Origin: Halomonas sp. Bachu 37
Lineage (GTDB): Bacteria; Pseudomonadota; Gammaproteobacteria; Pseudomonadales; Halomonadaceae
Direction of reading: 5' to 3'
Assembly: GCF_039691755.1 (NCBI RefSeq)
Contig: NZ_CP137552.1
Location: 1,054,001-1,118,000, forward strand
DNA length: 64,000 bases
The translations under genes and the position numbers were made by a program. Each line of letters begins with the position of its first letter. The first letter of the stretch is position 1. Positions 49,402 to 62,570 of this stretch are shown here, in pieces. The notes under the pieces are model-generated. The model saw only the letters and a list, made by a program, of their open reading frames with translations, was not told the origin of the DNA and ran no database searches.

Positions 49402-49525
49402 ACATTGAGCAGATCCTTAACCTTCGCTAGTACAGTCGCTATGCTGAATGTGGCTGGCACTGGTAGCCAGTGGATTTGGCCGTCCAGTCGACCTGATAAC
49501 AACATCCGATAACCGAGGAATCACC

Positions 49526-50530
49526 ATGACCTCTCGCTATTCGAAACTCTCTTTATTAACCACTGCCGCCGCTCTGGGTATTGGTCTCGCCGGCCTGAGC
49601 ACCACCGCCCAGGCTGCCACCGAATGGGATATGCCGACCCCTTATGGCGATCGTACTTTCCATACTGTGAATATTCGTGAGTTTGCCGATGACGTCCGCG
49701 AAGCCACCGATGGCGAGCTGGACATTACCGTCCATTCCAATGGATCACTGATCGGCCATGCCGAGATCAAGAATTCGGTGCGTCGTGGCATCGTGCCCAT
49801 CGGCGAGCTGATCATGTCTCGTTTGGCCAATGAAAATCCCATCTTCGAAGTGGACTCCGTGCCCTACCTGGCTAGTAGCTACGACGATGCCTGGTCATTG
49901 TGGGAAGCCTCTCGAGACATCATAGCCGAGGAACTTGAACAACAAGGATTGCGCCTATTGTTCGCTGTGCCATGGCCACCGCAAGGGATATACACCAACA
50001 AGGCCATCGAGACCGGCGACGACCTCGAGAATCTGAGCATGCGAGCCTATAACACCGCCAGCGAGCGCATCGCTCAGCTCACCGGTGCAGTCCCGACCCA
50101 GGTCGAAGTGCCCGATATCCCCACTGCCTTCAGTACCGGTCGTGTCGAGGCCATGATCACCTCTCCCGCCACCGGCGCTGATACCAAGGCATGGGACTAT
50201 CTGAGCCATTTCAACCACGCTCAGCTATGGCTACCCAAGAACATGATCATCGTCAGTGAAAAAGCCTTCTCGCGCCTCGATGAAGCCACTCAGCAGGCCG
50301 TGCTCGACGCTGCCGCCGAAGCAGAGACACGCGGTTGGGACATGAGCCGTCAGGAGACCGATGACGCCATCGCCGTGCTCGAGGAGAACGGCATCGTTGT
50401 CAGCGAGCCCAGCGAGGAATTGGCCGAGACCCTTCGGAAAGTCGGCGAGACCATGACCGATGAGTGGGTCGAAAGCGCCGGTGAACAGGGACAGACCATC
50501 CTCGACGCCTACGAAAACAATCGGGAGTAA
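49526..50530 (+). CDS. TRAP transporter substrate-binding protein (DctP)
   Basis: 334 residues from the ATG at 49526, which follows GAGG and begins a clear signal peptide (about 1-31, ending TTAQA). DctP fold: TPYGDRTFHTVNIREFADDVREATDGELDITVHSNGSLIG, FEVDSVPYLASSYDDAWSLW, and LSMRAYNTASERIAQLTGAVPTQVEVPDIPTAFSTGRVEAM with the conserved Arg of the carboxylate site. Binds an organic acid in the periplasm; the neighbouring pxpABC suggests 5-oxoproline. Confidence 0.9.
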   Translation: MTSRYSKLSLLTTAAALGIGLAGLSTTAQAATEWDMPTPYGDRTFHTVNIREFADDVREATDGELDITVHSNGSLIGHAEIKNSVRRGIVPIGELIMSRLANENPIFEVDSVPYLASSYDDAWSLWEASRDIIAEELEQQGLRLLFAVPWPPQGIYTNKAIETGDDLENLSMRAYNTASERIAQLTGAVPTQVEVPDIPTAFSTGRVEAMITSPATGADTKAWDYLSHFNHAQLWLPKNMIIVSEKAFSRLDEATQQAVLDAAAEAETRGWDMSRQETDDAIAVLEENGIVVSEPSEELAETLRKVGETMTDEWVESAGEQGQTILDAYENNRE

Positions 50531-50602
50531 TCCCAACCCGACCGCCCCGGCTACTTCATTCAGCACGGCCGGGGCGCTCCTGGCCTACTCGGGGATTTTT
50601 TC

Positions 50603-51154
50603 ATGACCTATCGACTGCGCCCTCTCTACAATTTGGGCGGCTATCTGGCGGCTACCTGCCTTACGCTTATATGCCTGCTCATCACTGCCCAGATTGTCGG
50701 ACGAATCATTGATCGTATCATCACGGGAATCGGCGGTGACCGAATCGGCCTTGCCATCCCCGGCCTCTCGGAAATATCAGGCTTTCTGCTGGTCGGCGCC
50801 AGTTTCCTCGGGCTGGCATATACGTTCGTGCATGGCGGGCATATTCGCGTGACATTGCTGATCGGCCGTCTCCCACCGGCAACCCGGGTCTGGTTCGAGG
50901 TATTCTGCCTTGCCATCGCCCTTGCACTCAGTGTCTACCTGGCATGGAATCTCTATTGGCTGCTGGATGACAGCATCGCCTTCAACGAGACTTCTTACGG
51001 CCTGCTGCGAATTCCCTTGTGGATTCCCCAATCGGCGATGCTCGCCGGCGTGGCCCTGCTGTGTCTCGCCCTGCTGGAGAGCGCCCTTTACACTCTGACC
51101 ACGGCCATCCGTGATCCACACGACTTCATCGTCGATGACAGCGGCCCCGAGTGA
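50603..51154 (+). CDS. TRAP transporter small permease (DctQ)
   Basis: 183 residues, four hydrophobic helices (about 12-30, 52-72, 88-108, 130-155). The FLLVGASFLGLAYTFVHGGHIRVTLLI motif is typical of DctQ. Lies between dctP and dctM in one operon. Confidence 0.9.
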   Translation: MTYRLRPLYNLGGYLAATCLTLICLLITAQIVGRIIDRIITGIGGDRIGLAIPGLSEISGFLLVGASFLGLAYTFVHGGHIRVTLLIGRLPPATRVWFEVFCLAIALALSVYLAWNLYWLLDDSIAFNETSYGLLRIPLWIPQSAMLAGVALLCLALLESALYTLTTAIRDPHDFIVDDSGPE

Positions 51155-51169
51155 GCCCGGAGAATCCCC

Positions 51170-52468
51170 ATGCTTGTTATGTTGACCTTGCTCTTCGGCG
51201 TCCTTCTCGTACTGCTCGGCAGCGGTGTCTGGGTCGCCTTTTCCCTACTGGGCCTGGGCTGGCTGGGTCTTTCGCAGTTCACTTCGATTCCCACCGGCGA
51301 TGTCATGGCCTCCGATATCTGGGGTTCCAGCTATAGCTGGGAGCTGACCGCCCTGCCGATGTTCATCTGGATGGGCGAGATACTGTTCCGTTCGCGTCTC
51401 GCCGACGACATGTTCACCGGGCTGTCGCCCTGGATGCAGCGTATACCCGGTCGCCTGTTGCATACCAACGTGGTGGGTTGCGGTCTCTTTGCCGCCGTGT
51501 CAGGTTCCTCCGCGGCTACCTGCGCCACCATGGGCAAGATGACCATTCCGGAGCTGACCCGTCGCGGCTATGACGAACAGCTGGTCATCGGCACTTTGGC
51601 CGGCTCCGCCACGTTGGGACTGCTGATTCCGCCCTCGATCATACTCATCGTCTTTGGCGTGGCCACCGACCAGTCCATCGCTCGTCTTTTCGTGGCCGGC
51701 ATCCTGCCAGGACTGATGCTGATTTCGTTGTTCGCCCTCTACCTGATGCTGTGGTCCTGGCGCCATCCTGATCGTGTGCCCCCTGCCGAGGCGGGCCTGC
51801 CGATAGGCGAGAAGCTGAAACGCTCACGGCGATTGATCCCCATGCTGGCATTGATCATCGGTGTGATCGGTTCCATCTATACCGGCCTGGCCTCCCCCAC
51901 CGAGGCGGCAGCCGTCGGTGTGGTGCTGTCGCTGCTGCTCGCTCGCGTCCAGGGCAGCATGGGTCTCACCATGTTCCGCGATGCGCTGCTGGGTGCGGTG
52001 CGCACCTCCACCATGATCGCCTTCATTCTTGCCGGGGCCTCCTTTCTCACCGCTGCCATGGGCTTTACCGGCTTGCCCAGCGACCTTGCTGCCTGGATCG
52101 GCACTATGGGGCTTTCTCCCTGGATGCTGCTCGTCGCCTTGACGATATTCTTTATCCTGCTGGGTTGCTTTCTCGACGGTATTTCGGTGGTGGTACTGAC
52201 CACTTCCATCATGCTGCCCATGGTGGAAGCGGCAGGCATCGACCTGATATGGTTCGGTATCTTTCTGGTAATCGTGGTTGAAATGTCTCAGATCACACCG
52301 CCAGTCGGCTTCAATCTGTTCGTCCTGCAGGGCATGACCGGTCGCAATATACTCAGCATTGCCTGGGCGGCCATGCCCTTCTTCTTCCTGATGATGCTTG
52401 GCGTGGTGTTGATCAGCCTCTTTCCCGGTATCGTCACCTGGCTACCCGAAGTCATGGCCAATCGTTAA
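51170..52468 (+). CDS. TRAP transporter large permease (DctM)
   Basis: 432 residues, about 12 helices. Hallmarks: ALPMFIWMGEILFRSRLADDMF, VVGCGLFAAVSGSSAATCATMGKMTIPELTRRGYDEQLVIGTLAGSATLGLLIPPSIILIVFGVATD and EMSQITPPVGFNLFVLQGM. Na+-coupled importer subunit partnering DctQ and DctP. Confidence 0.93.
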   Translation: MLVMLTLLFGVLLVLLGSGVWVAFSLLGLGWLGLSQFTSIPTGDVMASDIWGSSYSWELTALPMFIWMGEILFRSRLADDMFTGLSPWMQRIPGRLLHTNVVGCGLFAAVSGSSAATCATMGKMTIPELTRRGYDEQLVIGTLAGSATLGLLIPPSIILIVFGVATDQSIARLFVAGILPGLMLISLFALYLMLWSWRHPDRVPPAEAGLPIGEKLKRSRRLIPMLALIIGVIGSIYTGLASPTEAAAVGVVLSLLLARVQGSMGLTMFRDALLGAVRTSTMIAFILAGASFLTAAMGFTGLPSDLAAWIGTMGLSPWMLLVALTIFFILLGCFLDGISVVVLTTSIMLPMVEAAGIDLIWFGIFLVIVVEMSQITPPVGFNLFVLQGMTGRNILSIAWAAMPFFFLMMLGVVLISLFPGIVTWLPEVMANR

Positions 52469-52485
52469 AAAAACAAGGAGTGTTC

Positions 52486-53004
52486 ATGTCGGTCAAGCCA
52501 AAACCGAGGGGACCCATCGTCTCCTCGGAGCATCTATCGCACAGCTCCCAGGAACTTTCCGAGTTCGAATTCGGCCTCATCATTTCCGGCAACGCCTTCC
52601 ATCGCTGGATGGTGCGCTGCATGACCGCTACGGGCTATCCGGAGCTTAGCTCACTGGATGTGCTGGTACTGCATAGCGTCAATCATCGCAAGCGGGCCAA
52701 GCGACAATCCGATATCTGCCTGGTACTCAACGTGGAGGACACCCATACCGTGACCTATGCGCTGAAGAAGCTGGGGAGACTGGGACTGGTCAGTGGCGAA
52801 AAACAGGGCAAGGAAACGTTTTTCTGCACCACCGATGAGGGCCGAGAATCCTGTAGGAAATATGCGGAGATCCGCGAGGCCTGTCTGGTGGAATCGCTCT
52901 CCTCCATGGGAGTCGAGCCGGAGGAAATGAGTCGCTTGGCGGGCATGCTACGCGCCATGTCGGGTCTCTATGACCAGGCCGCCCGGGCTGCGGCATCGCT
53001 TTAA
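52486..53004 (+). CDS. MarR-type winged-helix regulator of the TRAP operon
   Basis: 172 residues from the ATG at 52486, with AAGGAG at 6 bases; a GTG two codons earlier is too close to it. Central winged helix: SSLDVLVLHSVNHRKRAKRQSDICLVLNVEDTHTVTYALKKLGRLGLVSGEKQGKETFFCTTDEGRE. The RA..LSDI...LNVEDTHTVTYALKKL pattern is a known MarR subgroup (YkmA-like) often found with transporter operons. Last gene of dctPQM and likely regulator of the divergent pxp/TRAP promoters. Confidence 0.82.
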   Translation: MSVKPKPRGPIVSSEHLSHSSQELSEFEFGLIISGNAFHRWMVRCMTATGYPELSSLDVLVLHSVNHRKRAKRQSDICLVLNVEDTHTVTYALKKLGRLGLVSGEKQGKETFFCTTDEGRESCRKYAEIREACLVESLSSMGVEPEEMSRLAGMLRAMSGLYDQAARAAASL

Positions 53005-53023: not shown

Positions 53024-54850
53024 TCACTCCGCAAGAGCGGCCCTGGGATCGCGAGGATAGAAGCGTTCCGGCTGGCGTTCCATGTGGGTAAAAGCGCGGG
53101 TGTCCTTGTAGGGCATCTTCATGAAGCCAGAAACTCCAAGCCCTTCGATGGCACCGATTGCTTCGAGAATGGTATCCAACTGGTGCCGAAACTCTTCTTC
53201 CCGCGCGGGATCCAGCAGCCGATAGTAACTATGGATCTTGAGATGGTTCGGCAATGCCTCGAAGATGATCATGCCGGTATGGTGGATCTCGTTGAGCCGG
53301 CGCAGCGCCGCCATTATTGGCTCTGGCAAGATCAGCAGCTCCTCGGGATCGGGGCCGTCCTCGAAGTAACTGTGCTGGCGGGTTTGGTCCTCGAGTTCCG
53401 GCACCGAACTGGTCTCGTAGGGAAGCCGCATCCCCTCGAGCGGCTGGAAGGGCTCGTCGGGATGGTCGCGCTCGAGGTGCAAGGTATCGCGTGCGTTGAA
53501 CAGACAGCTCTTGAAGATGCCGCGCCGATGGATTGCCCGGGCCAGATGCACCATGTTATTGACTGCCGCGATGAACGCCGGCTTCAAGCTTGCGTCGTGG
53601 AGATTCAGCGAGGTATCGATATATACCCCCTCCCGCTCCCAACGTACGGCCAGCCCACCCACCACCGGATACTTGCCCAGACGGCTTACCGCTGCGAGAA
53701 ACGCCTTTTCCGTTTCCCCCATTCCCTGCATGAAATTCTTGTAGTAGCGATCCAGTTGCACGTCGTTGACGTCATTGAGCACTTCCTGGCCGCTGACTTC
53801 GCGCAAGAATTCCTTGCGCGAGCTGTATACCACCGTATCGATATCCCGCTGAGTCGCCCTGACCCATACCGGGACAAGGCATGAAACGGGAGCCTGGGGA
53901 AGGTCAATCATCACCAGACGGGACAACCTCGGCATTGCCTGGATGAAGTGCTCACCGGCACGGGCCCGGGTGCGCGGGTCGGGATCGAGCATGCCGTCGA
54001 GAGTGCGGGCGAACTCCATCGGCAGGCCCAGAGAGGTGGCAGGAATGGCGCGATGGCCGAAGCGGCACGATTGCGCCGAGGCCAGGGCATAGAGCGTTCC
54101 CGCCACGCCCTGCTCATCGAAACGGGGAGAAGAGAGCGCACCATTGAGCTGTTCTTCGCCGATGAAGTAGACATCTCCCAGGCGGGCATTGGTCTGTTGC
54201 AGGTTATCCGACATCAGCTCCATGACATTGGCCGCCACGAACTGCTGGTTGGCATCCAGCTGCGCGAATACCGAGGAGCCCCAGTCGATCAAGGCGATGT
54301 CTTCATGGTCCGGATCGAATACCAGATTGGAGGGCTTGATATCGCCGTGTACCACGGGGCGCGAACCGGGACCGGTCTCACGCCGCAACGCCGTCAGAAT
54401 TTCACCGAGCTGCGCGGCGATGCGCATGATCAAGCGTGGCGACAGGCGCCCGCTGCGCAGCGAGAACTCTTCCAGGTTCAAGCCGGGCGCTCGTTGCATA
54501 ACCAGAATCGATTGCCCGCGGACACGCTGGAACGCCACCAGGGCGGGCACCCGGGGATGCTTGACCTGTTCGAGCATGAAGGCTTCTTCCTCCAAGCGCT
54601 CCTGCAGGGCATGGGGTAGCGTTACCCGGGTGAACTTGAATACGTACTGATCACCCAGCGCCGTGGTGCCGGCGAATACGAAGCCATAGGCACCCTTGCC
54701 GATCAATTGAATATCCCGATAACCCAGCTGGGCCAACTGCGCCTCGCACAGGGCCACCCACTCCCTGAGCTTGCGCGCATCGTGATGGCTGAGCAGATAG
54801 ATCGACTGCTCTTCGGGAATATAAAACTGCTGCAGGGGCGCCTGGCTCAT
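53024..54850 (-). CDS. Eukaryotic-like Ser/Thr protein kinase linked to the branched-chain 2-oxoacid dehydrogenase operon
   Basis: 608 residues. Kinase domain (about 45-320): glycine loop IGKGAYGFVFAG at 50-61, Lys72 in YVFKF, catalytic loop VHGDIKPSNLVF with Asp170, and metal loop IDWGS (Asp189; DWG instead of DFG). The key residues for activity are all present. The C-terminal half (about 320-608) has no domain I recognise; it carries YYKNFMQGMGETEKAFLAAV and GGLAVRWEREGVYIDTSLNLHDASLKPAFIAAVNNMVHLARAIHRRGIFKSC. No transmembrane helix or PASTA repeats, so cytoplasmic. Its ATG is 2 bases after the E2 stop: fourth gene of the E1alpha-E1beta-E2 operon. A regulatory role on the complex is inference. 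Confidence 0.85.
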   Translation of the reverse strand: MSQAPLQQFYIPEEQSIYLLSHHDARKLREWVALCEAQLAQLGYRDIQLIGKGAYGFVFAGTTALGDQYVFKFTRVTLPHALQERLEEEAFMLEQVKHPRVPALVAFQRVRGQSILVMQRAPGLNLEEFSLRSGRLSPRLIMRIAAQLGEILTALRRETGPGSRPVVHGDIKPSNLVFDPDHEDIALIDWGSSVFAQLDANQQFVAANVMELMSDNLQQTNARLGDVYFIGEEQLNGALSSPRFDEQGVAGTLYALASAQSCRFGHRAIPATSLGLPMEFARTLDGMLDPDPRTRARAGEHFIQAMPRLSRLVMIDLPQAPVSCLVPVWVRATQRDIDTVVYSSRKEFLREVSGQEVLNDVNDVQLDRYYKNFMQGMGETEKAFLAAVSRLGKYPVVGGLAVRWEREGVYIDTSLNLHDASLKPAFIAAVNNMVHLARAIHRRGIFKSCLFNARDTLHLERDHPDEPFQPLEGMRLPYETSSVPELEDQTRQHSYFEDGPDPEELLILPEPIMAALRRLNEIHHTGMIIFEALPNHLKIHSYYRLLDPAREEEFRHQLDTILEAIGAIEGLGVSGFMKMPYKDTRAFTHMERQPERFYPRDPRAALAE

Positions 54851-54852
54851 GG

Positions 54853-56220
54853 TTACCCCAGGTACAGCAGCATGCTCTCCGGTGCTTCCAGATAGCCTTT
54901 CCAGCTATTGCAGAAGCGGGCGATGGCGCCACCATCGATCAAACGATGGTCCCCTGCCCAGGTCACCGTCATTATGGCCCGCTTTACCACATTCCCCTCG
55001 GCATCGAAGCGCGGTAGCCACTGGGTCTTGCCGATCGCCACGATGGCGGCTTCCGGCGCATTGATGATCGGTGCCGCGTAGGTTCCTCCCAAGGCACCGA
55101 TATTGGAAATACTGATGGTGCCTCCCTTGAGGTCGGCCTGATCCACCCGCCCGTCACGCGCCGCGGCTGTCAGGCGCGCCACCTCCCGGGCGATTTCCAG
55201 TACGCTCAAGCGTTCGACGTGCTTGACGTTGGGCACCAACAAACCCGCCTTGCTATCCACCGCCATGCCGATATTGCAGGCGGTGTAATAGTGAATTTCA
55301 TCAGCGACAGGGTTCAACCTGGCATTGATGATAGGATGCTCGGCCACGGCAAGGGCGAGTGCCTTCATGAACAGCGGCATCAGCGTCAAGCGAGTTTCCC
55401 GTGCTTCAGCCTGCGGCTTGAGGCGTTCGCGTAGCGCCAAAAGTTCGGTGACGTCGATCTCCTCGCCGAACTGGAAATGCGGAATCGTAGTGGCTGACTC
55501 GACCATCCGCTTGGCCATGACCGCGCGGATACCACGTAACGGCTCCACACGGAATTCCTCATCAGCCCTATTCTTGTCCGGCGTCGTCTGGCCTTGGCGG
55601 TTATCGGACGGGCCCTGTTCCAGGTAATCGAGCACATCTTCCTTGAGCACGCGCCCTTGCTTGCCCGAGCCAGGAATACTATCCAGTCGCAGCTCATGCT
55701 CGCGTATTAGCCGACGGACCGCCGGGCTGGCGGGCACTCGTCCATAAGGGCCCTTCCCCGCACTGGCGGTCGCACTCTGTTCGGCGCTGGCTTCAATGGT
55801 GTTCGCCGGATCGCGCGGGGCGGGTTGAGGCGTGCTGGACTCCGACGAGCCGACATCGCTTCGCTTAGGCTCCCTATCACTATCGCCCAGCTGCGCCTGT
55901 CGGCTGTCTTCACCGTTCTGCTCGTTTTCGCCTGCCTTGTTTTCATCTGCACCGTTCTCACCCGAGTCGCTTTCACCCGAATCGTTTTCACCGACATAGG
56001 CGTACAAGGGAGCATGTACCTTGGCGATACTGCCCTTGTCGACATACAAGCGGGTGATGCGACCGGCTTCGGGTGCGGTGATTTCCACCAGCGCCTTATC
56101 CGTCATCACCTCGACGATGGGCTGATCCTCTTCGATGATATCGCCCTCCGCAACGCGCCATTCAACCACTTCACACTCGACAATCCCTTCGCCGATATCC
56201 GGCAGCATGAAATCGCTCAT
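54853..56220 (-). CDS. bkdB: Branched-chain 2-oxoacid dehydrogenase E2 (dihydrolipoamide acyltransferase)
   Basis: 455 residues. Single lipoyl domain with Lys42 in MTDKALVEI. A linker (about 76-165) rich in acidic SGE/AGE/NGED units. E1/E3-binding domain (about 168-205, ASPAVRRLIREHELRLDSIPGSGKQGRVLKEDVLDYL). Catalytic domain (about 225-455) with AGDHRLIDGGAIARF, the HxxxDG active site. Transfers branched acyl groups to CoA. The gene for the dedicated E3 (lpdV) is absent here, so the general E3 may serve. Overlapping operon with E1 genes and a kinase. Confidence 0.9.
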   Translation of the reverse strand: MSDFMLPDIGEGIVECEVVEWRVAEGDIIEEDQPIVEVMTDKALVEITAPEAGRITRLYVDKGSIAKVHAPLYAYVGENDSGESDSGENGADENKAGENEQNGEDSRQAQLGDSDREPKRSDVGSSESSTPQPAPRDPANTIEASAEQSATASAGKGPYGRVPASPAVRRLIREHELRLDSIPGSGKQGRVLKEDVLDYLEQGPSDNRQGQTTPDKNRADEEFRVEPLRGIRAVMAKRMVESATTIPHFQFGEEIDVTELLALRERLKPQAEARETRLTLMPLFMKALALAVAEHPIINARLNPVADEIHYYTACNIGMAVDSKAGLLVPNVKHVERLSVLEIAREVARLTAAARDGRVDQADLKGGTISISNIGALGGTYAAPIINAPEAAIVAIGKTQWLPRFDAEGNVVKRAIMTVTWAGDHRLIDGGAIARFCNSWKGYLEAPESMLLYLG

Positions 56221-56244
56221 TTGTTCTTCTCCCGTCCTGTGACG

Positions 56245-57222
56245 TCAAAAATCGACGCTTTCGCGAATTGCCTCGAAAATCTTCAGATGATCCGGTAGAT
56301 ACTCTTTTTCCAGGGTCAAGGGAAAAGGTGTATCCAATCCGGTGACGCGGGCAATCGGCGACTCCAGATACAGGAAACAACGCTCTTGAATGGTGGTGGC
56401 GATTTCACCGGCAAACCCACCGGTGCGGGGCGCTTCGTGGGTGATCACCAGCCGCCCCGTTTTCAGTACGGATTCGACCACGGTGTCCTCATCCCACGGC
56501 AGCAGGCTTCGCAGGTCGATCACTTCGCAGGAGATACCGGCCTCTTCCGCCAGTTCTACCGCCTTGCCGATCACTTCCATCTGGGCGCCCCAGCCGACCA
56601 GCGTGATATCCGTGCCCTCTTTGATGATATCCGCCTCACCGAGGGGAAGCTGGTAGTCCTCTTCGGGTACCTCACCCACCGAGGCGCGATAGAGCCGCTT
56701 GGGTTCGAAGAAGATCACCGGATCGGCATCGCGAATGGCAGCCAGCAACAGCCCCTTGGCCTGGTAGGGATTGCGAGGCACCACGATCTTCAAGCCAGGC
56801 GTATGGGTGAAATAGGCCTCGGGCGATTGCGAATGATAGAGCCCGCCCGAAATGCCGCCGCCATAGGGGGTGCGGATCGTCAGCCCGCCGACATTGAACA
56901 GATCTCCCGAGCGGTAGCGGAACTTGGCGGTTTCGTTGACGATCTGGTCGAAGGCGGGAAAGATGTAATCGGCGAATTGTATTTCGGCGACCGGAACCGA
57001 TCCCTGGGCCGCCAGTCCATTGGCAAAGCCGATGATTCCCTGCTCTACCAGAGGAGTATTGAAGCAACGAGCCTTGCCGTATTTCCCCTGCAGGTTGCTG
57101 GTGGCCCGGAAAACGCCACCGAAAATTCCCACATCCTCGCCGAAGCAGATGACTTTCTCGTCTTCGGCCATGGCGATGTCGAGCGCATTGTTGATCGCCT
57201 GCAGCATGTTCATGGTCGGCAT
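56245..57222 (-). CDS. bkdA2: Branched-chain 2-oxoacid dehydrogenase E1 beta subunit
   Basis: 325 residues from the ATG at 57222, just after the E1alpha stop; the longer reading to 57297 runs into E1alpha. Transketolase_C-type protein: [68 protein letters not shown] and [42 protein letters not shown]. The Glu in CFGEDVG contacts thiamine diphosphate. Forms the alpha2beta2 decarboxylase with the previous gene. Confidence 0.93.
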
Positions 57223-57223
57223 T

Positions 57224-58429
57224 CTAGCGCTCCCCCTGGTCGTTGCTGTCGACAGCCACTTCTGGGTCCAGCGAGCGTGCCCCACGCGGATAGGCATCGG
57301 GGTACTTGCGAATATGGCGTTTCAATTGGTCGAACTGGTTCTGCAGCGACGGCGTCACCTCGGCATAGACTTCGCTGACCAGACTATCCAGTGGCGGCGG
57401 CGGCCGTTTTTCCGCACGCTTCATGGTTTCCAGCACTTCCCGACGCAGGCTCTCCTGAAGCTCCTTCTCTTCCTCTTCACTCCACCACTGCTGTCCCAGC
57501 ATCCACTTCTGCATGCGCAGTAGCGGGTCCTGGTCATGCCATATCTGCTCCTCGCTCTTGGAGCGATAGCCCGAGGGGTCGTCCGAGGAGGAGTGCGCCG
57601 CCAGGCGATACGTCATCGCCTCGATAAGCACGGGCTGATTGTTTTCCACGGCAATCCGGCGCGCCTGCCGCGTCGCTTCATAGACCGCCAGGATATCGTT
57701 GCCATCGACGCGGATCACATGCATGTGGTAACCGAAGGCCCGCGGAGCGATGCCGTCGGCGGCGAACTGCTCGACAGCGGGAGTGGAGATTGCATAACCG
57801 TTATTGCGACAGAAGAAGATCACCGGCACCGCATGCACCGAGGCCATGTTCAGCGCCGCGTGGAAGTCGCCTTCCGAGGCGGCGCCCTCACCGAAGAACG
57901 TGATGGTGCAATGGCCGTCTTCGGCCAGTTTCTGACCGTAAGCGTAGCCGGTAGCCTGGGGGATCTGGGTCGCCAGCGGCGAGGAAATCGTCATGTAATG
58001 CAGCTTGCGCGAGCCGTAATGCACCGGCATCTGCCGGCCTTTACCGTAATCCAGCTCGTTGCCGAACAACTGATTCATGAACTCATCAAAAGTGAAGCCG
58101 CGATATACTAGAGCACCTTGCTCGCGATACTGCGCCATGATCATGTCGGCATCGTCGAGTGCGGCCGTGGCGCCGATCACGGCGGCTTCCTCGCCGGTAC
58201 ACTGCATGTAGAAACTCAAGCGCCCCTGACGTTGCGCCGCCATCATGCGTTCGTCGAGTACCCGAGTGGCCAGCATGGCTCGATAGATTCGCCGCGCGTG
58301 ATCACGGGACAGCTGGGGGGCGGTCGCGCCTTCACGCAGACAACCGTCGGGATCAAGTAGCCTAAAAGTAGGAATGGAGAATTCATCACCGGTCAGAAAG
58401 ACCGGCTCATGCACGTGCGGTGTGGTCAT
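57224..58429 (-). CDS. bkdA1: Branched-chain 2-oxoacid dehydrogenase E1 alpha subunit
   Basis: 401 residues. Thiamine diphosphate motif [33 protein letters not shown] (about 178-210). The phosphorylation loop is well kept: [12 protein letters not shown] at 279-290, where Ser280 and Ser290 align with the two serines phosphorylated in the animal enzyme. Decarboxylates the keto acids of Val, Leu and Ile. First gene of the operon, preceded by an AAGGAC ribosome site; a short CCCC-AAAA-GGGG inverted repeat (58447-58458) lies in the leader. Confidence 0.92.
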
Positions 58430-58566: not shown

Positions 58567-59325
58567 TCAATACGCACGCAACCAGCGCTGCAATTGTTCA
58601 AACGCACTATCGATCGTCAGCGCCAGCAGTCCTATCACGATAGCGCCCTGGACTACATAGGCCGTGTTGTCGTTGACGATGCCGGCAATAATGGGGTCGC
58701 CAAGGTTACTCGCTCCGACAGTCGCGCCGATCGCCGCCGTGGCGATATTGATGGTGACGGAGGTCCGAATTCCCGCCAGGATGACGGGGGCAGCAATGGG
58801 CAGCTCGACCTTGCGCAGTATCTGTCCAGAGGTCATGCCCATTCCCCGCGCTGCTTCCTTGATATTCATATCCACGTCCTGCAAGCCCGCTAGAGTATTG
58901 CGCACGATCGGCAGTAACCCGTAGAGCACCAGCGCCACGATGATCGGCAAAGTGCCGAAACCCAACACGGGAACGGCAAGCGCCAGCACGGCGACCGGGG
59001 GGAAGGTCTGGCCGATCGACGCCAACTGCGCCACCAGCGGCAGGAAATCACGACCGACGGGACGAGTCACGGCAATGGCGGCGCTCACCCCCAGCGCAAT
59101 CGCTACGCACGCGGCAAGGGTAACCACCAGCAGATGCTGCCCGAGCAGCCGGGAAAGTTCGGCACGTTCATAGATCAGATTGCGGCTATCCGGCTCCACG
59201 AACCGTAGCACCGCCTCTAGCTGAGGCATGAAACTCACCGCCAGCACCAGCAATAGCAACCAGATCACCGGCACTGCGACTCCTTTCATTGATTTGCCGG
59301 ATCGTGACGACGTCTCACTGGTCAC
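58567..59325 (-). CDS. yehW: Glycine betaine-type ABC transporter permease YehW
   Basis: 252 residues, five to six helices. RNLIYERAELSRLLGQHLLVVTLAACVAIALGVSAAIAVTRPVGR and the EAA-type loop IKEAARGMGMTSGQILRKVELPIAAPVILAGIRTSVTINIATAAIGATVGA are typical of OpuBB/OpuBD-like permeases. Last gene of osmF-yehY-yehX-yehW; overlaps yehX by 11 bases. Confidence 0.9.
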   Translation of the reverse strand: MTSETSSRSGKSMKGVAVPVIWLLLLVLAVSFMPQLEAVLRFVEPDSRNLIYERAELSRLLGQHLLVVTLAACVAIALGVSAAIAVTRPVGRDFLPLVAQLASIGQTFPPVAVLALAVPVLGFGTLPIIVALVLYGLLPIVRNTLAGLQDVDMNIKEAARGMGMTSGQILRKVELPIAAPVILAGIRTSVTINIATAAIGATVGASNLGDPIIAGIVNDNTAYVVQGAIVIGLLALTIDSAFEQLQRWLRAY

Positions 59326-60262
59326 TAGTATGCTCCTTGATCAATTTGCGCAGCGACAGCTCACCGATGGGCACATCGTGTGCGTCGACGACAGTCAACC
59401 GATCGGTGTGATCGCGCAGCATCAAGGACAAGGCGTGACGAAGTGAGAGCGTACTTTCTACTCTGGAATGAGCAGGCAGTGTGGGGCCCAGCGGCAGCAT
59501 ATGGCTCGATACCTTGGTCAGCCCGGCCTGTTTCAGGCCACGCTCCACTCCGCCGAGCATGGATTCGACGAACTTGTCCGCAGGCTTGCTCAACAATGCC
59601 AGTGGGGTGCCCTGCTGGATGATTCGACCGTCTCGCATGATGACCAATCTATCGGCCAGCTTGAGGGCCTCGTCCATATCGTGCGTCACGAAAACGATGG
59701 TCTTGTGCAAGCGTGATTGCAAGGCGCGCAATTCGTCCTGTAGCTTTTCCCGGGTGATCGGGTCGAGCGCCCCGAAGGGCTCGTCCATCAGCAGGATATC
59801 GGGATCGGCCGCCAGTGCACGGGCCACACCGACACGCTGAGCCTGTCCTCCAGAGAGTTGGTGAGGATACTTGTCGGCAAACTCTCCGATCGGCAGGCCG
59901 AGTAGTTCCATCAATTGCTGTACCCGCTCACGTACATCGGAAGCGGGCCATTTGAGCAAACGCGGTACCAGGGCAATATTGCGCGCCACCGTCCAGTGGG
60001 GAAAGAGCCCGGTACTCTGGATCGAATAGCCGATGCGCCTGCGTAACTTGACCTCGTTGAATTCGCGGATCGGCTGCCCATCGAGATGGATCTCGCCTTC
60101 ACTGTGTTCGATCAGGCGGTTGATCATGCGCAGTGTCGTGGATTTGCCGCAGCCCGAGGTACCCACCAGGGCACAGAACTCGCCCTTGTCGACCTTGAAG
60201 GAAATATCGTCAACCGCTACATCGTCGCCAAAGCGCTTGGTGACATTAAAAAGCTCTATCAT
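59315..60262 (-). CDS. yehX: Glycine betaine-type ABC transporter ATPase YehX
   Basis: 315 residues. Walker A GTSGCGKST, signature LSGGQAQRVGVARAL, Walker B ILLMDEPFGALDP and VTHDMDEALKLADR. A C-terminal CBS-like segment (about 255-310, VESTLSLRHALSLMLRDHTDRLTVVDAHDVPIGELSL) may sense ionic strength, as in OpuA. Overlaps yehY by ATGA. Confidence 0.92.
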   Translation of the reverse strand: MIELFNVTKRFGDDVAVDDISFKVDKGEFCALVGTSGCGKSTTLRMINRLIEHSEGEIHLDGQPIREFNEVKLRRRIGYSIQSTGLFPHWTVARNIALVPRLLKWPASDVRERVQQLMELLGLPIGEFADKYPHQLSGGQAQRVGVARALAADPDILLMDEPFGALDPITREKLQDELRALQSRLHKTIVFVTHDMDEALKLADRLVIMRDGRIIQQGTPLALLSKPADKFVESMLGGVERGLKQAGLTKVSSHMLPLGPTLPAHSRVESTLSLRHALSLMLRDHTDRLTVVDAHDVPIGELSLRKLIKEHTSDQ

Positions 60263-61458
60263 CTCGCCCCTCCCGGGCGCAAGGCGTCACTGATAGCGCC
60301 CAACAGGGCATCCACCATCAAGGCCATCAACAAGATGGGTAACGCACCCAGGAGCACCATATCCATGGCGGCCTGGCCCAACCCCTGGAAAATGAAGGTC
60401 CCCAGACCGCCGGCACCGATCAAGGCAGCTACCGCCGTGAGGCCTATCGCCTGCACCAGTGTAATGCGAAGCCCTTCCAGCAAAACCGGTAGCGCCAATG
60501 GCAAGCGTACCTGGAAAAAAACCTGCCGAGCATTCATGCCCATTCCCCGTGCCGCTTCGATCACCGCGGGGCTGACCGCTTCCAACGCCACGAACGTGTT
60601 ACGTACCATCGGCAACAAACTATACGCGACCAGAGCCAGCAAGGCCGGAGCCCAACCGATGCCACTGACGCCCCAGCGGGCCAATGTGGGAAACTCGGCG
60701 GCAAGCCAGGCCAGGGGAGCCAGCAACAGGCCGAAAAGGGCCAGGCTAGGAACGGTTTGCAGAAAATTGAGCAGACCGAATGCCGCCTTCTGCAATCGGG
60801 AGTAGCGTCGCATCAACAGCGCCATCGCCACTCCCGCCACAACACTGATGCTCGCTGTAGCGGCCACTAGCGCAATATGCCGTGCCATCGCGGCTGAAAA
60901 CTGATCGCTGCGCACGTGATATTCGCGCATGAGCGCCAGCGGTTCCAGCCACAAGCCCAGGCACAACCACCAGAGCAGTCCCACCGGGACGATGAGTCCC
61001 CAGCTCATGAGACGGGAAAGGGCCAGCCGTTGGCGCAACTCCACCAGCGCCAGCAATAGCACGAACAGGATCGCCCAGAATCCCGCCCCGATACCTAGCC
61101 GAGCCTGGGGCATGTCAGCTTCGATGAGCCTATACCCCGCAATCATCAAGGCAAAGGGCATAAGCACGAGCAGCGTCATTACCAGCGCCAGGAGAATGGG
61201 ATAGTGTTGCCGGTTCGCAAGCAGACTCAATCCAACGACACTCAGCAATAACACTGCGCCGAGCGCGGCCCCCAACCAGCCCAACGCACTGATGGCGCCG
61301 TGACCGACACCCGGCACGATTCGGTTGGGAGCTACGCTGGCAAGATCCAGCCCCACGAATGCCGCCAAGGCGACACTGGCCAAGACCAGCAGCACCCAAT
61401 TGGGGGACAATCTTCGGCGTGAGGTTTCCATTGCCGCCATTTCATCCTTGAGCGACAT
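60259..61458 (-). CDS. yehY: Glycine betaine-type ABC transporter permease YehY
   Basis: 399 residues with about ten helices. The N-terminal half carries extra helices (about 20-180), as in YehY. The transport core follows, with VAAGVAMALLMRRYSRLQKAAFGLLNFLQTVPSLALFGLLLAPLAWL and IEAARGMGMNARQVFFQVRLPLALPVLLEGLRITLVQAIGLTAVAALIGAGGLGTFIFQGL. Starts 3 bases after osmF. Confidence 0.9.
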   Translation of the reverse strand: MSLKDEMAAMETSRRRLSPNWVLLVLASVALAAFVGLDLASVAPNRIVPGVGHGAISALGWLGAALGAVLLLSVVGLSLLANRQHYPILLALVMTLLVLMPFALMIAGYRLIEADMPQARLGIGAGFWAILFVLLLALVELRQRLALSRLMSWGLIVPVGLLWWLCLGLWLEPLALMREYHVRSDQFSAAMARHIALVAATASISVVAGVAMALLMRRYSRLQKAAFGLLNFLQTVPSLALFGLLLAPLAWLAAEFPTLARWGVSGIGWAPALLALVAYSLLPMVRNTFVALEAVSPAVIEAARGMGMNARQVFFQVRLPLALPVLLEGLRITLVQAIGLTAVAALIGAGGLGTFIFQGLGQAAMDMVLLGALPILLMALMVDALLGAISDALRPGGAR

Positions 61459-61461
61459 GAA

Positions 61462-62472
61462 TTATTTTTCCAAACTGTCGAGATAGTCTGCCGCCACGTT
61501 TTCGGCGGCCAGACCGTTGACAGCTACCTCGGCATTCAATGACTGGAGCGTTTCCAGGTCCAGAGTGGAAAAGACATCGGCAAGGACCGACTCGATTTGC
61601 GGATACGCTTCGAGCACTTCCTGGCGAATCACCGGGGCCGGCTGATAGACCGGCTGCACGCCCAGGGTATCTTCGAGCACCACCAGGTCGAGAGCCTTTA
61701 GGCCGCCATCGGTGCCGTAGGTCATGGCGGCATTGACCCCGCTGGTCTGCTGGGCGGCTGCGCGCATGGTGGCGGCGGTATTGCCGCCGGAAAGCACCAG
61801 CAGCTGGTCAGAATCAAGATCGAAACCATAGGCTTCCTGAAAAGCCGGCAAGGCCTGCTCGGATTCGACGAACTCGGCACTGGCGGCAAACTTGAATTCA
61901 CCGCCGCTGTCCAGGTACTCGGCCAGGTCTTCTAGCGTCGCCAAGTCATGCTCGCGAGCCAGGTCTCCGCGTACGCTCATGGCCCAGGTGTTGTTGGCCT
62001 GGGCGGGAGTCAGCCAGACCAGACCGTTCTCGGCATCGCGTTCACGCACGGTGTTATAGGCTTGTTCAGCATCGTGCCAGACGTCGCTGTCGCTCATGTC
62101 GAAGAAAAAGGCGCCGTTACCGGTATATTCCGGATAGAGGTCGATATCGCCGGTTTCCAGCGCGCCGCGAACAATACTGGTCGCGCCCAGCTGCAAGCGA
62201 TCTTCCGTTTCGATGCCTTCCTTTTCCAGCGCCTGAATGATCAGCTCGCCAAGGACTGCTCCTTCGGTGTCGATCTTGGAAGAGACAACCACTGGATCCT
62301 CGGCATGAGCCTGGGAGGCGACGCCTAATGCAGCGCAGGACAGCATCGCCACCGACCACCGGGCGAATGAAGATCGAGCGGGGGCTGGTGAGCCGGGGGA
62401 GCATGAGAAATAGTGAGGGTGACGATGAGAAGAACGAAAAGCGGAGGCTAATGGTTTGATAGAAAAGGACAT
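61462..62472 (-). CDS. osmF: Glycine betaine-type periplasmic binding protein OsmF (YehZ)
   Basis: 336 residues from the ATG at 62472; an in-frame start at 62502 is possible. The signal region is long, with the hydrophobic core at about 43-56 (VAMLSCAALGVASQAHA). OpuAC domain: DPVVVSSKIDTEGAVLGELIIQALEKEGIETEDRLQLGATSIVRGALETGDIDLYPEYTGNGAFFF, the OsmF signature. In E. coli the Yeh system is a low-affinity, osmotically induced betaine-type importer. Likely relevant to osmoadaptation of a halophile; ligand not proven. Confidence 0.88.
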   Translation of the reverse strand: MSFSIKPLASAFRSSHRHPHYFSCSPGSPAPARSSFARWSVAMLSCAALGVASQAHAEDPVVVSSKIDTEGAVLGELIIQALEKEGIETEDRLQLGATSIVRGALETGDIDLYPEYTGNGAFFFDMSDSDVWHDAEQAYNTVRERDAENGLVWLTPAQANNTWAMSVRGDLAREHDLATLEDLAEYLDSGGEFKFAASAEFVESEQALPAFQEAYGFDLDSDQLLVLSGGNTAATMRAAAQQTSGVNAAMTYGTDGGLKALDLVVLEDTLGVQPVYQPAPVIRQEVLEAYPQIESVLADVFSTLDLETLQSLNAEVAVNGLAAENVAADYLDSLEK

Positions 62473-62570
62473 GGCGAATCTCACTCGTTGGCGTGGGTTC
62501 ACTCGAGTATAAGAGCCGATAGCGTTGATGTCAGATTCGGGCCGAATATTACAACGCTATCGGATGCTTG

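Follow-up and report, generated by a model that had tools for sequence, protein, structure and literature searches.

A Hanks-type kinase encoded with a branched-chain 2-oxoacid dehydrogenase in Halomonas and its relatives: a candidate counterpart of mitochondrial BCKDH kinase

We analysed a window of 64,000 nucleotides from Halomonas sp. Bachu 37 (the whole stretch NZ_CP137552.1, positions 1,054,001 to 1,118,000), in which the minus strand of positions 53024-58429 holds a four-gene operon for E1alpha, E1beta and E2 of a branched-chain 2-oxoacid dehydrogenase (BCKDH) complex, followed by a Hanks-type Ser/Thr protein kinase. Our best reading of these sequences is that the kinase is a bacterial counterpart of mitochondrial BCKDH kinase that evolved independently. 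A functional link between the kinase and the dehydrogenase complex is very probable from their distribution and linkage across genomes. We further lean towards an explanation in which this dedicated kinase would phosphorylate a loop of E1alpha and so shut off the breakdown of branched-chain amino acids.

The operon and its kinase

The first gene encodes E1alpha (57224-58429, minus strand as for the whole operon, 401 aa; PF00676, 331 bits). Its sequence scored 402 bits against human BCKDH E1alpha (1dtw chain A), 230 against the Thermus protein, about 217 against the 2-oxoisovalerate enzymes 1qs0 and 2bp7, and 149 against human pyruvate dehydrogenase (PDH) E1alpha, and the NCBIfam profile for PDH (TIGR03181) scored 371, under its cut-off of 411. 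By these scores it is an E1alpha of the mitochondrial BCKDH (BCKDHA) type, closer to BCKDH than to PDH E1alpha. E1beta (56245-57222; Transket_pyr and Transketolase_C) had its start set one base past the E1alpha stop, at 57222 or slightly downstream, within a longer in-frame open reading frame (ORF) extending to 57297. The E2 acyltransferase (54853-56220) carries one lipoyl domain (PF00364), an E3-binding domain (PF02817) and a catalytic domain (PF00198), and the kinase (53024-54850, 608 aa) closes the operon. The gaps between successive genes are 1, 24 and 2 bases, with only 54851-54852 lying between the E2 stop and the kinase ATG. A preliminary description of this stretch, made from its letters and ORFs, had already named the kinase as the fourth gene of this dehydrogenase operon and placed its start 2 bases after the E2 stop; the domain matches and ORF coordinates agree on both counts, and the catalytic residues that it listed (Lys72, Asp170 of HGD and Asp189 of DWG) are in place and invariant, as detailed below.

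To classify the kinase we combined family, profile and structure searches. The Pfam Pkinase profile (PF00069) matched residues 44-201 with 60.5 bits (curated cut-off 31.7), covering only profile positions 1-153 of 263, and the second-best Pfam match was APH with 37.9 bits. All 32 kinases compared, drawn from a diverse range of families, share residues K72, E89, H168, G169, D170, K172, N175, D189, W190 and G191, the usual HRD and DFG motifs reading HGD and DWG in this kinase family, and HGDxKPSN together with DWG was found in all 112 kinases read. A profile built from the 32 kinases matched 1309 distinct PDB sequences at E<=0.01, and the 60 best matches listed were all protein kinases; with the single sequence, bacterial StkP gave the top PDB matches. 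An AlphaFold2 (AF2) model of the full kinase reached a predicted local distance difference test score (pLDDT) of 76.5 and a predicted template modelling score (pTM) of 0.82, and a Foldseek search with this predicted structure returned protein kinases in all 50 matches listed, PknA and PknE among them with TMt 0.68-0.71. By domain score, catalytic residues and predicted fold, the fourth gene product is a Hanks-type (eukaryotic-like) Ser/Thr protein kinase, and its sequence looks catalytically intact. The signature of the mitochondrial PDH and BCKDH kinases (BCDHK_Adom3 plus a GHKL ATPase domain) gave no Pfam match in it. A search of its own genome for the eukaryotic-type BCKDH kinase family (PF10436) also returned none, a weak genome-wide negative, as the control search gave no hit either. 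No relative of the kinase was found in the viral contigs searched.

Distribution and linkage of the kinase and E1alpha

We then tallied the kinase and E1alpha in four overlapping genome draws (family, order, phylum and class), all within Pseudomonadota, using E1alpha cut-offs of 1e-60 (family), 1e-80 (order), 1e-80 (phylum) and 1e-65 (class). Over the four draws, 139 distinct genomes held both the kinase and an E1alpha of the type linked to it; the kinase alone was found in 1 and E1alpha alone in 1. Among the 151 genomes of the family draw, the kinase was present in 114 and E1alpha in 113, with both in 113 and E1alpha only in none. In the sole kinase-only genome (G131) the contig starts within E1beta, which truncates the operon. 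At the cut-offs used, 37 genomes of this draw have neither gene, among them one from the same genus as the window and every member sampled from eight genera; each gene is present in 16 of the 24 genera. In the order draw (174 genomes) there were 20 with the kinase, 21 with E1alpha and 20 with both, the exception being G287, an assembly in about 280 contigs. The same 16 genomes held both in the phylum draw (299 genomes) and the same 3 in the class draw (321 genomes), none holding either alone, with E1alpha counted in the class draw at 475 bits or more. The carriers are mostly marine and salt-loving bacteria.

The scores separate well. Uncut kinase matches reached at least 665 bits, the others being 518 (cut by a contig end), 268 (a degraded copy in genome G105) and 53 (a fragment). 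E1alpha scores were either at least 475 or at most 259 bits, except for a split gene in Marinobacter similis (402 and 267 bits). A further six genomes of the class draw lack the kinase and have only an E1alpha of lower score (227-259 bits, 37-42% identity), and five further E1alpha paralogues (232-248 bits) lie inside kinase-carrying genomes of the family draw; these 11 sequences are referred to below as the kinase-less type. The tallies count as holding both genes G105, whose kinase is degraded, and G098, whose kinase match has a gap of about 79 residues.

Two of these loci call for comment in their own right. In Marinobacter similis (G603:C1:488150-489294; locus L150), the E1alpha gene falls into two frames that overlap, next to a kinase match of full length; the cause is either a natural frameshift or a sequencing error. 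In G105, an 11-kb tract of a 239-kb contig (G105:C8, about 99,500-110,600; L068 from about 7,500 to its end and L186 1-2,600) has fairly sharp borders and a composition of about 4% T with A and C at about 36% each. It spans the expected place of E2, the kinase and more genes, with broken frames; compared with the kinase genes of relatives, it has kept only 35% of T and 57% of G, with 93% of A. Strand-asymmetric hypermutation or an assembly fault may lie behind this tract.

The pair also tends to stay together on the chromosome. The preliminary description had proposed a neighbourhood survey and held that a kinase found mostly away from bkd genes in relatives would speak against a link; it is not, the kinase and E1alpha lying within 5 kb of each other in 108 of the 113 family genomes. 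The other five belong to one genus, with the two genes 17-28 kb apart (three genomes) or on other contigs (two). A set of 80 named GTDB-species loci, being the top 80 out of at least 368 rather than a random sample, was read as well; it covers Halomonas, Vreelandella, Billgrantia, Marinobacter, Alteromonas, Glaciecola, Oceanospirillum, Balneatrix, Motiliproteus, Porticoccaceae and others. E2 lies upstream on the same strand in 77 of these (60 within 300 bp and 17 at 0.9-7.6 kb), two of the remaining loci are at contig ends, and the last, from Simiduia, has no bkd gene in its flank and its E1alpha elsewhere in the genome (542 bits). Further cases of separation are G307, with the genes 69 kb apart, and family f65, where they lie megabases apart in G514 and G538 and on different contigs in G588. 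Simiduia was counted apart from G307, the nearest kin of its kinase being linked ones and the two loci sharing no neighbour. In all, ten genomes in four lineages have the genes separated and still keep both. No common alternative context for the separated kinases appeared among the neighbours identified in three of the four lineages, which were a diguanylate cyclase, DUF3750 and a tRNA synthetase in one, a hybrid histidine kinase, TPMT and a porin in another, and Lgt and a bestrophin-like protein in the third. The tree-distance correlation between the kinase and E1alpha was 0.90, and that between E1alpha and E1beta 0.92. Co-occurrence and linkage argue, at the level of genomes, that the two are functionally linked, and are no evidence of a mechanism.

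Other genes around the operon were named by reading their sequences, or by Pfam where a family is given. In the window, same-strand genes 5' of the operon (58567-62502) read as a betaine/choline-type ABC transporter with a binding protein, permeases and an ATPase; beyond the kinase, a winged-helix regulator (52480-53004; PF13463) is convergent with it, their stops being 19 bases apart, and TRAP-transporter-like genes follow at 49448-52468. In one group of relatives the gene between E2 and the kinase reads as RlmJ, and those beyond as TesB and gamma-carbonic anhydrase. In G287, the gene after E2 reads, without a family search, as leucine dehydrogenase, which fits a branched-chain substrate.

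The E1alpha phospho-loop and the kinase C-terminal region

To locate candidate acceptors, we aligned the E1alpha loop (codons 279-290, at 57560-57595, computed from the ORF) with residues 291-302 of 1dtw. The alignment is gapless and, counting from it, puts Ser280 at chain residue 292 and Ser290 at 302, which we take to be the published phosphorylation sites 1 and 2 of human BCKDH E1alpha. Among the five human E1alpha chains with alignments listed, three are variants in which the site-1 residue itself is N, D or E. Site 1 is the functional phosphorylation site in animals and, by analogy, should also be the functional one here if the kinase acts on the loop.

Site statistics were drawn from the fetched loci rather than from all 139 genomes. 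Ser280 was invariant in the 101 distinct E1alphas of the kinase-linked type, and position 290 was Ser in 88, Thr in 2, Leu in 4, Ala in 4, Asn in 2 and Gly in 1, the sole Gly290 occurring in G287, the only genome in which this E1alpha type was detected without a kinase (n = 1). The 11 kinase-less-type E1alphas have Ser (6) or Thr (5) at position 280 and Asp (6), Pro (4) or Ala (1) at position 290. A hydroxyl residue at the site-2 position, kept in 90 of 101 linked-type versus 0 of 11 kinase-less-type sequences, is the clearest separator of the two types in these alignments. The types are different clades, so this contrast is not independent evidence, and as the loop also serves catalysis, the acceptor patterns support the loop as a target without proving it.

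Residues 312-608 of the kinase (53027-53917) matched no Pfam family at E<=10. A separate AF2 model of this C-terminal region (pLDDT 77.4) has two helix-strand-strand-helix-strand-strand units. Foldseek with this model gave 465 matches at E<=10 and none at E<=0.001, the best having E 0.14 and the 50 matches listed having probabilities of at most 0.08; the matches, among them PCNA, the origin-binding domain of adeno-associated virus (AAV) Rep and HemS, were rejected as chance. Aligned to each other with hhalign, the two units gave a gapless register of 61 columns with a probability of only 4% (E 0.011), which is only a hint of an internal duplication.

Between the units lies the motif HSYFEDG (codons 493-499, at 53354-53374, computed from the ORF), in a stretch of low model confidence (pLDDT<50 at residues 487-502). 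It was present in all 112 kinases read (109 distinct), with columns H493-G499 invariant. It resembles the phospho-loop motif HS[ST]SDDP of E1alpha, the two sharing the pattern HSxx[DE]D. Among ORFs of at least 200 aa in the fetched loci, this pattern occurred in 111 of 112 kinases, 110 of 116 E1alpha-type proteins, 0 of 121 E2, 0 of 115 E1beta and 1 of 1906 other ORFs, a group that includes many spurious frames. The misses were the degraded kinase of G105, five E1alpha paralogues of the kinase-less type and half of the split Marinobacter similis gene. When the sequence of the window's kinase was shuffled, at least one HSxx[DE]D appeared in 0.8% of 20,000 trials, for a pattern chosen after the fact. 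We regard the resemblance of HSYFEDG to HSSSDD as a lead, not a result.

Interpretation and comparison with known systems

Under the explanation that we lean towards, the fourth gene of the operon would encode a protein kinase dedicated to its co-encoded dehydrogenase complex. It would phosphorylate the E1alpha phospho-loop, chiefly at Ser280, which we hold to be the probable main target with an inhibitory effect; the phosphate would disturb a loop that the lipoyl domain of E2 must meet, and the breakdown of leucine, isoleucine and valine would be shut down when these amino acids are scarce. In that case a kinase of the unrelated Hanks type would do here what BCKDH kinase does in mitochondria. 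Its C-terminal region would serve for docking to the complex or as a metabolite sensor, and the HSYFEDG loop could act as a pseudosubstrate or as an autophosphorylation site, which is the natural guess. In this account we infer which residue is modified, that the effect is inhibitory, what the signal is and what the C-terminal region does.

Several observations weigh against this explanation. Within clades, tree congruence and co-occurrence partly reflect plain vertical inheritance. All 11 kinase-less-type E1alphas carry Ser or Thr at the site-1 position, meaning that the loop is conserved without the kinase, and the site-2 residue has been lost (to A, L or N) in 10 kinase-carrying E1alphas, eight of them in Vreelandella or Halomonas. 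The kinase match of G098 (G098:C40:32498-34063) is without residues from about 486 to 564, that is HSYFEDG and part of the second C-terminal unit, so the loop may be dispensable or the assembly faulty. The target could also be another protein. Finally, the animal BCKDH system has a dedicated phosphatase of PP2C type, and we recognised no phosphatase among the recurrent kinase neighbours read, most neighbours having been left unidentified and SpoIIE-type enzymes not having been searched for. The only PP2C_2 match in the window's own genome (G000:C1:265432-266946) is 0.8 Mb away, in the same apparent 577-aa frame as a Pkinase match, and is likely a kinase/phosphatase fusion. In G155 (L039:4865-6184), a response regulator with a PP2C/SpoIIE-type phosphatase, named by reading and without a family search, lies directly downstream of the kinase and is a possible reversal partner there.

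The preliminary description had located Ser280 and Ser290 at the site-1 and site-2 positions of animal BCKDH E1alpha, which the gapless alignment to 1dtw confirms, and had cautioned that conservation of the loop alone is not proof; given the site-1 hydroxyl in 11 of 11 kinase-less-type sequences, the caution was well placed, and we likewise rejected site conservation as proof of the target. Its proposal of an independently evolved kinase switch on BCKDH has gained the pairing with the dehydrogenase in 139 genomes, an intact active site and an invariant site-1 serine, and we still only infer the target residue and the effect.

Alternatively, the kinase may serve the complex and phosphorylate E2, E1beta, E3, itself or a protein that regulates branched-chain amino acid genes rather than the E1alpha loop; the co-occurrence would fit any partner in the complex, HSYFEDG could be an autophosphorylation site and site 2 is not strictly kept. 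However, the E1alpha acceptor residues sit exactly at the positions used in animals, and the loop of the kinase resembles that of E1alpha, its pattern being absent from the E2 and E1beta ORFs, and we consider such a target possible but rather unlikely. We give similar, tentative credence to a variant in which the Hanks kinase, found in the sampled genomes only alongside a mitochondrial-type BCKDH, would have converged on the serine used by the unrelated animal kinase and would be held inactive by a C-terminal copy of its substrate loop (HSYFEDG for HSSSDD) that gives way once the complex binds in its place; because no partner phosphatase was identified, such a kinase may also reverse its own action as AceK does.

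The change of HRD to HGD and the secondary APH match would suit a phosphotransferase acting on a small molecule, or an enzyme that transfers a different group, AMP for example, with a metabolite of the pathway as substrate. Pkinase nevertheless outscores APH (60.5 versus 37.9 bits), the catalytic loop HGDIKPSN keeps the Lys that is typical of protein kinases, and the best profile and Foldseek matches listed (60 and 50, respectively) are protein kinases throughout, which makes this activity improbable. We hold it about as improbable that a kinase of unrelated function merely travels with the bkd genes in an old operon. Most carriers do keep the genes adjacent, and the kinase-E1alpha tree correlation is no higher than that among subunits; yet both genes were kept in the ten genomes of four lineages where linkage is broken, no genome in the four draws has the kinase without E1alpha (the contig-end case aside), and the neighbours examined around the unlinked kinases are unrelated to each other.

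In the literature, a 2010 classification of prokaryotic kinases (PMC2877116) describes a cluster 5 found in Gammaproteobacteria only, with members from Shewanella, Marinobacter, Pseudoalteromonas and Alteromonas. Marinobacter and Alteromonas are common to it and to the carriers listed here, and cluster 5 may be this kinase family; the word "dehydrogenase" is absent from the main text of that paper as available to us. Among the matches listed by our literature searches, which left most subscription journals out of reach, we recognised no report of this kinase acting on a bacterial BCKDH.

If the explanation that we favour is true, it would show cleanly that unrelated kinases can converge on the regulation of a single residue, and it would provide a function for a kinase family of Halomonas, Vreelandella, Marinobacter and Alteromonas and an indication that the E1alpha loop is a natural handle for switching off 2-oxoacid dehydrogenases. 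In animals, the covalent control of BCKDH by its own kinase is a textbook subject of physiology, with ties to maple syrup urine disease and insulin resistance.

Among bacterial kinases, AceK, the isocitrate dehydrogenase kinase/phosphatase of enteric bacteria, likewise serves a single metabolic enzyme and has its gene last in a metabolic operon; it also dephosphorylates its substrate and forms its own Pfam family, which the kinase described here does not match, and its target enzyme differs. PknG of Corynebacterium acts via the FHA protein OdhI on the 2-oxoglutarate complex, so that a bacterial Ser/Thr kinase controls a 2-oxoacid dehydrogenase complex there, as we propose here, whereas the present operon holds only E1alpha, E1beta, E2 and the kinase. 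Closest in proposed function are the mitochondrial BCKDH kinase (BCKDK/BDK) and the PDH kinases, which are dedicated 2-oxoacid dehydrogenase kinases; in the case of BCKDH kinase, the proposed acceptors Ser280 and Ser290 correspond in position to its sites, within an E1alpha of matching type. The mitochondrial enzymes have the GHKL fold, whereas the candidate counterpart is an operon-encoded Hanks kinase with a C-terminal region of no known family; given this difference in fold, the bacterial switch would have evolved separately from that of animals if the proposed target is right.

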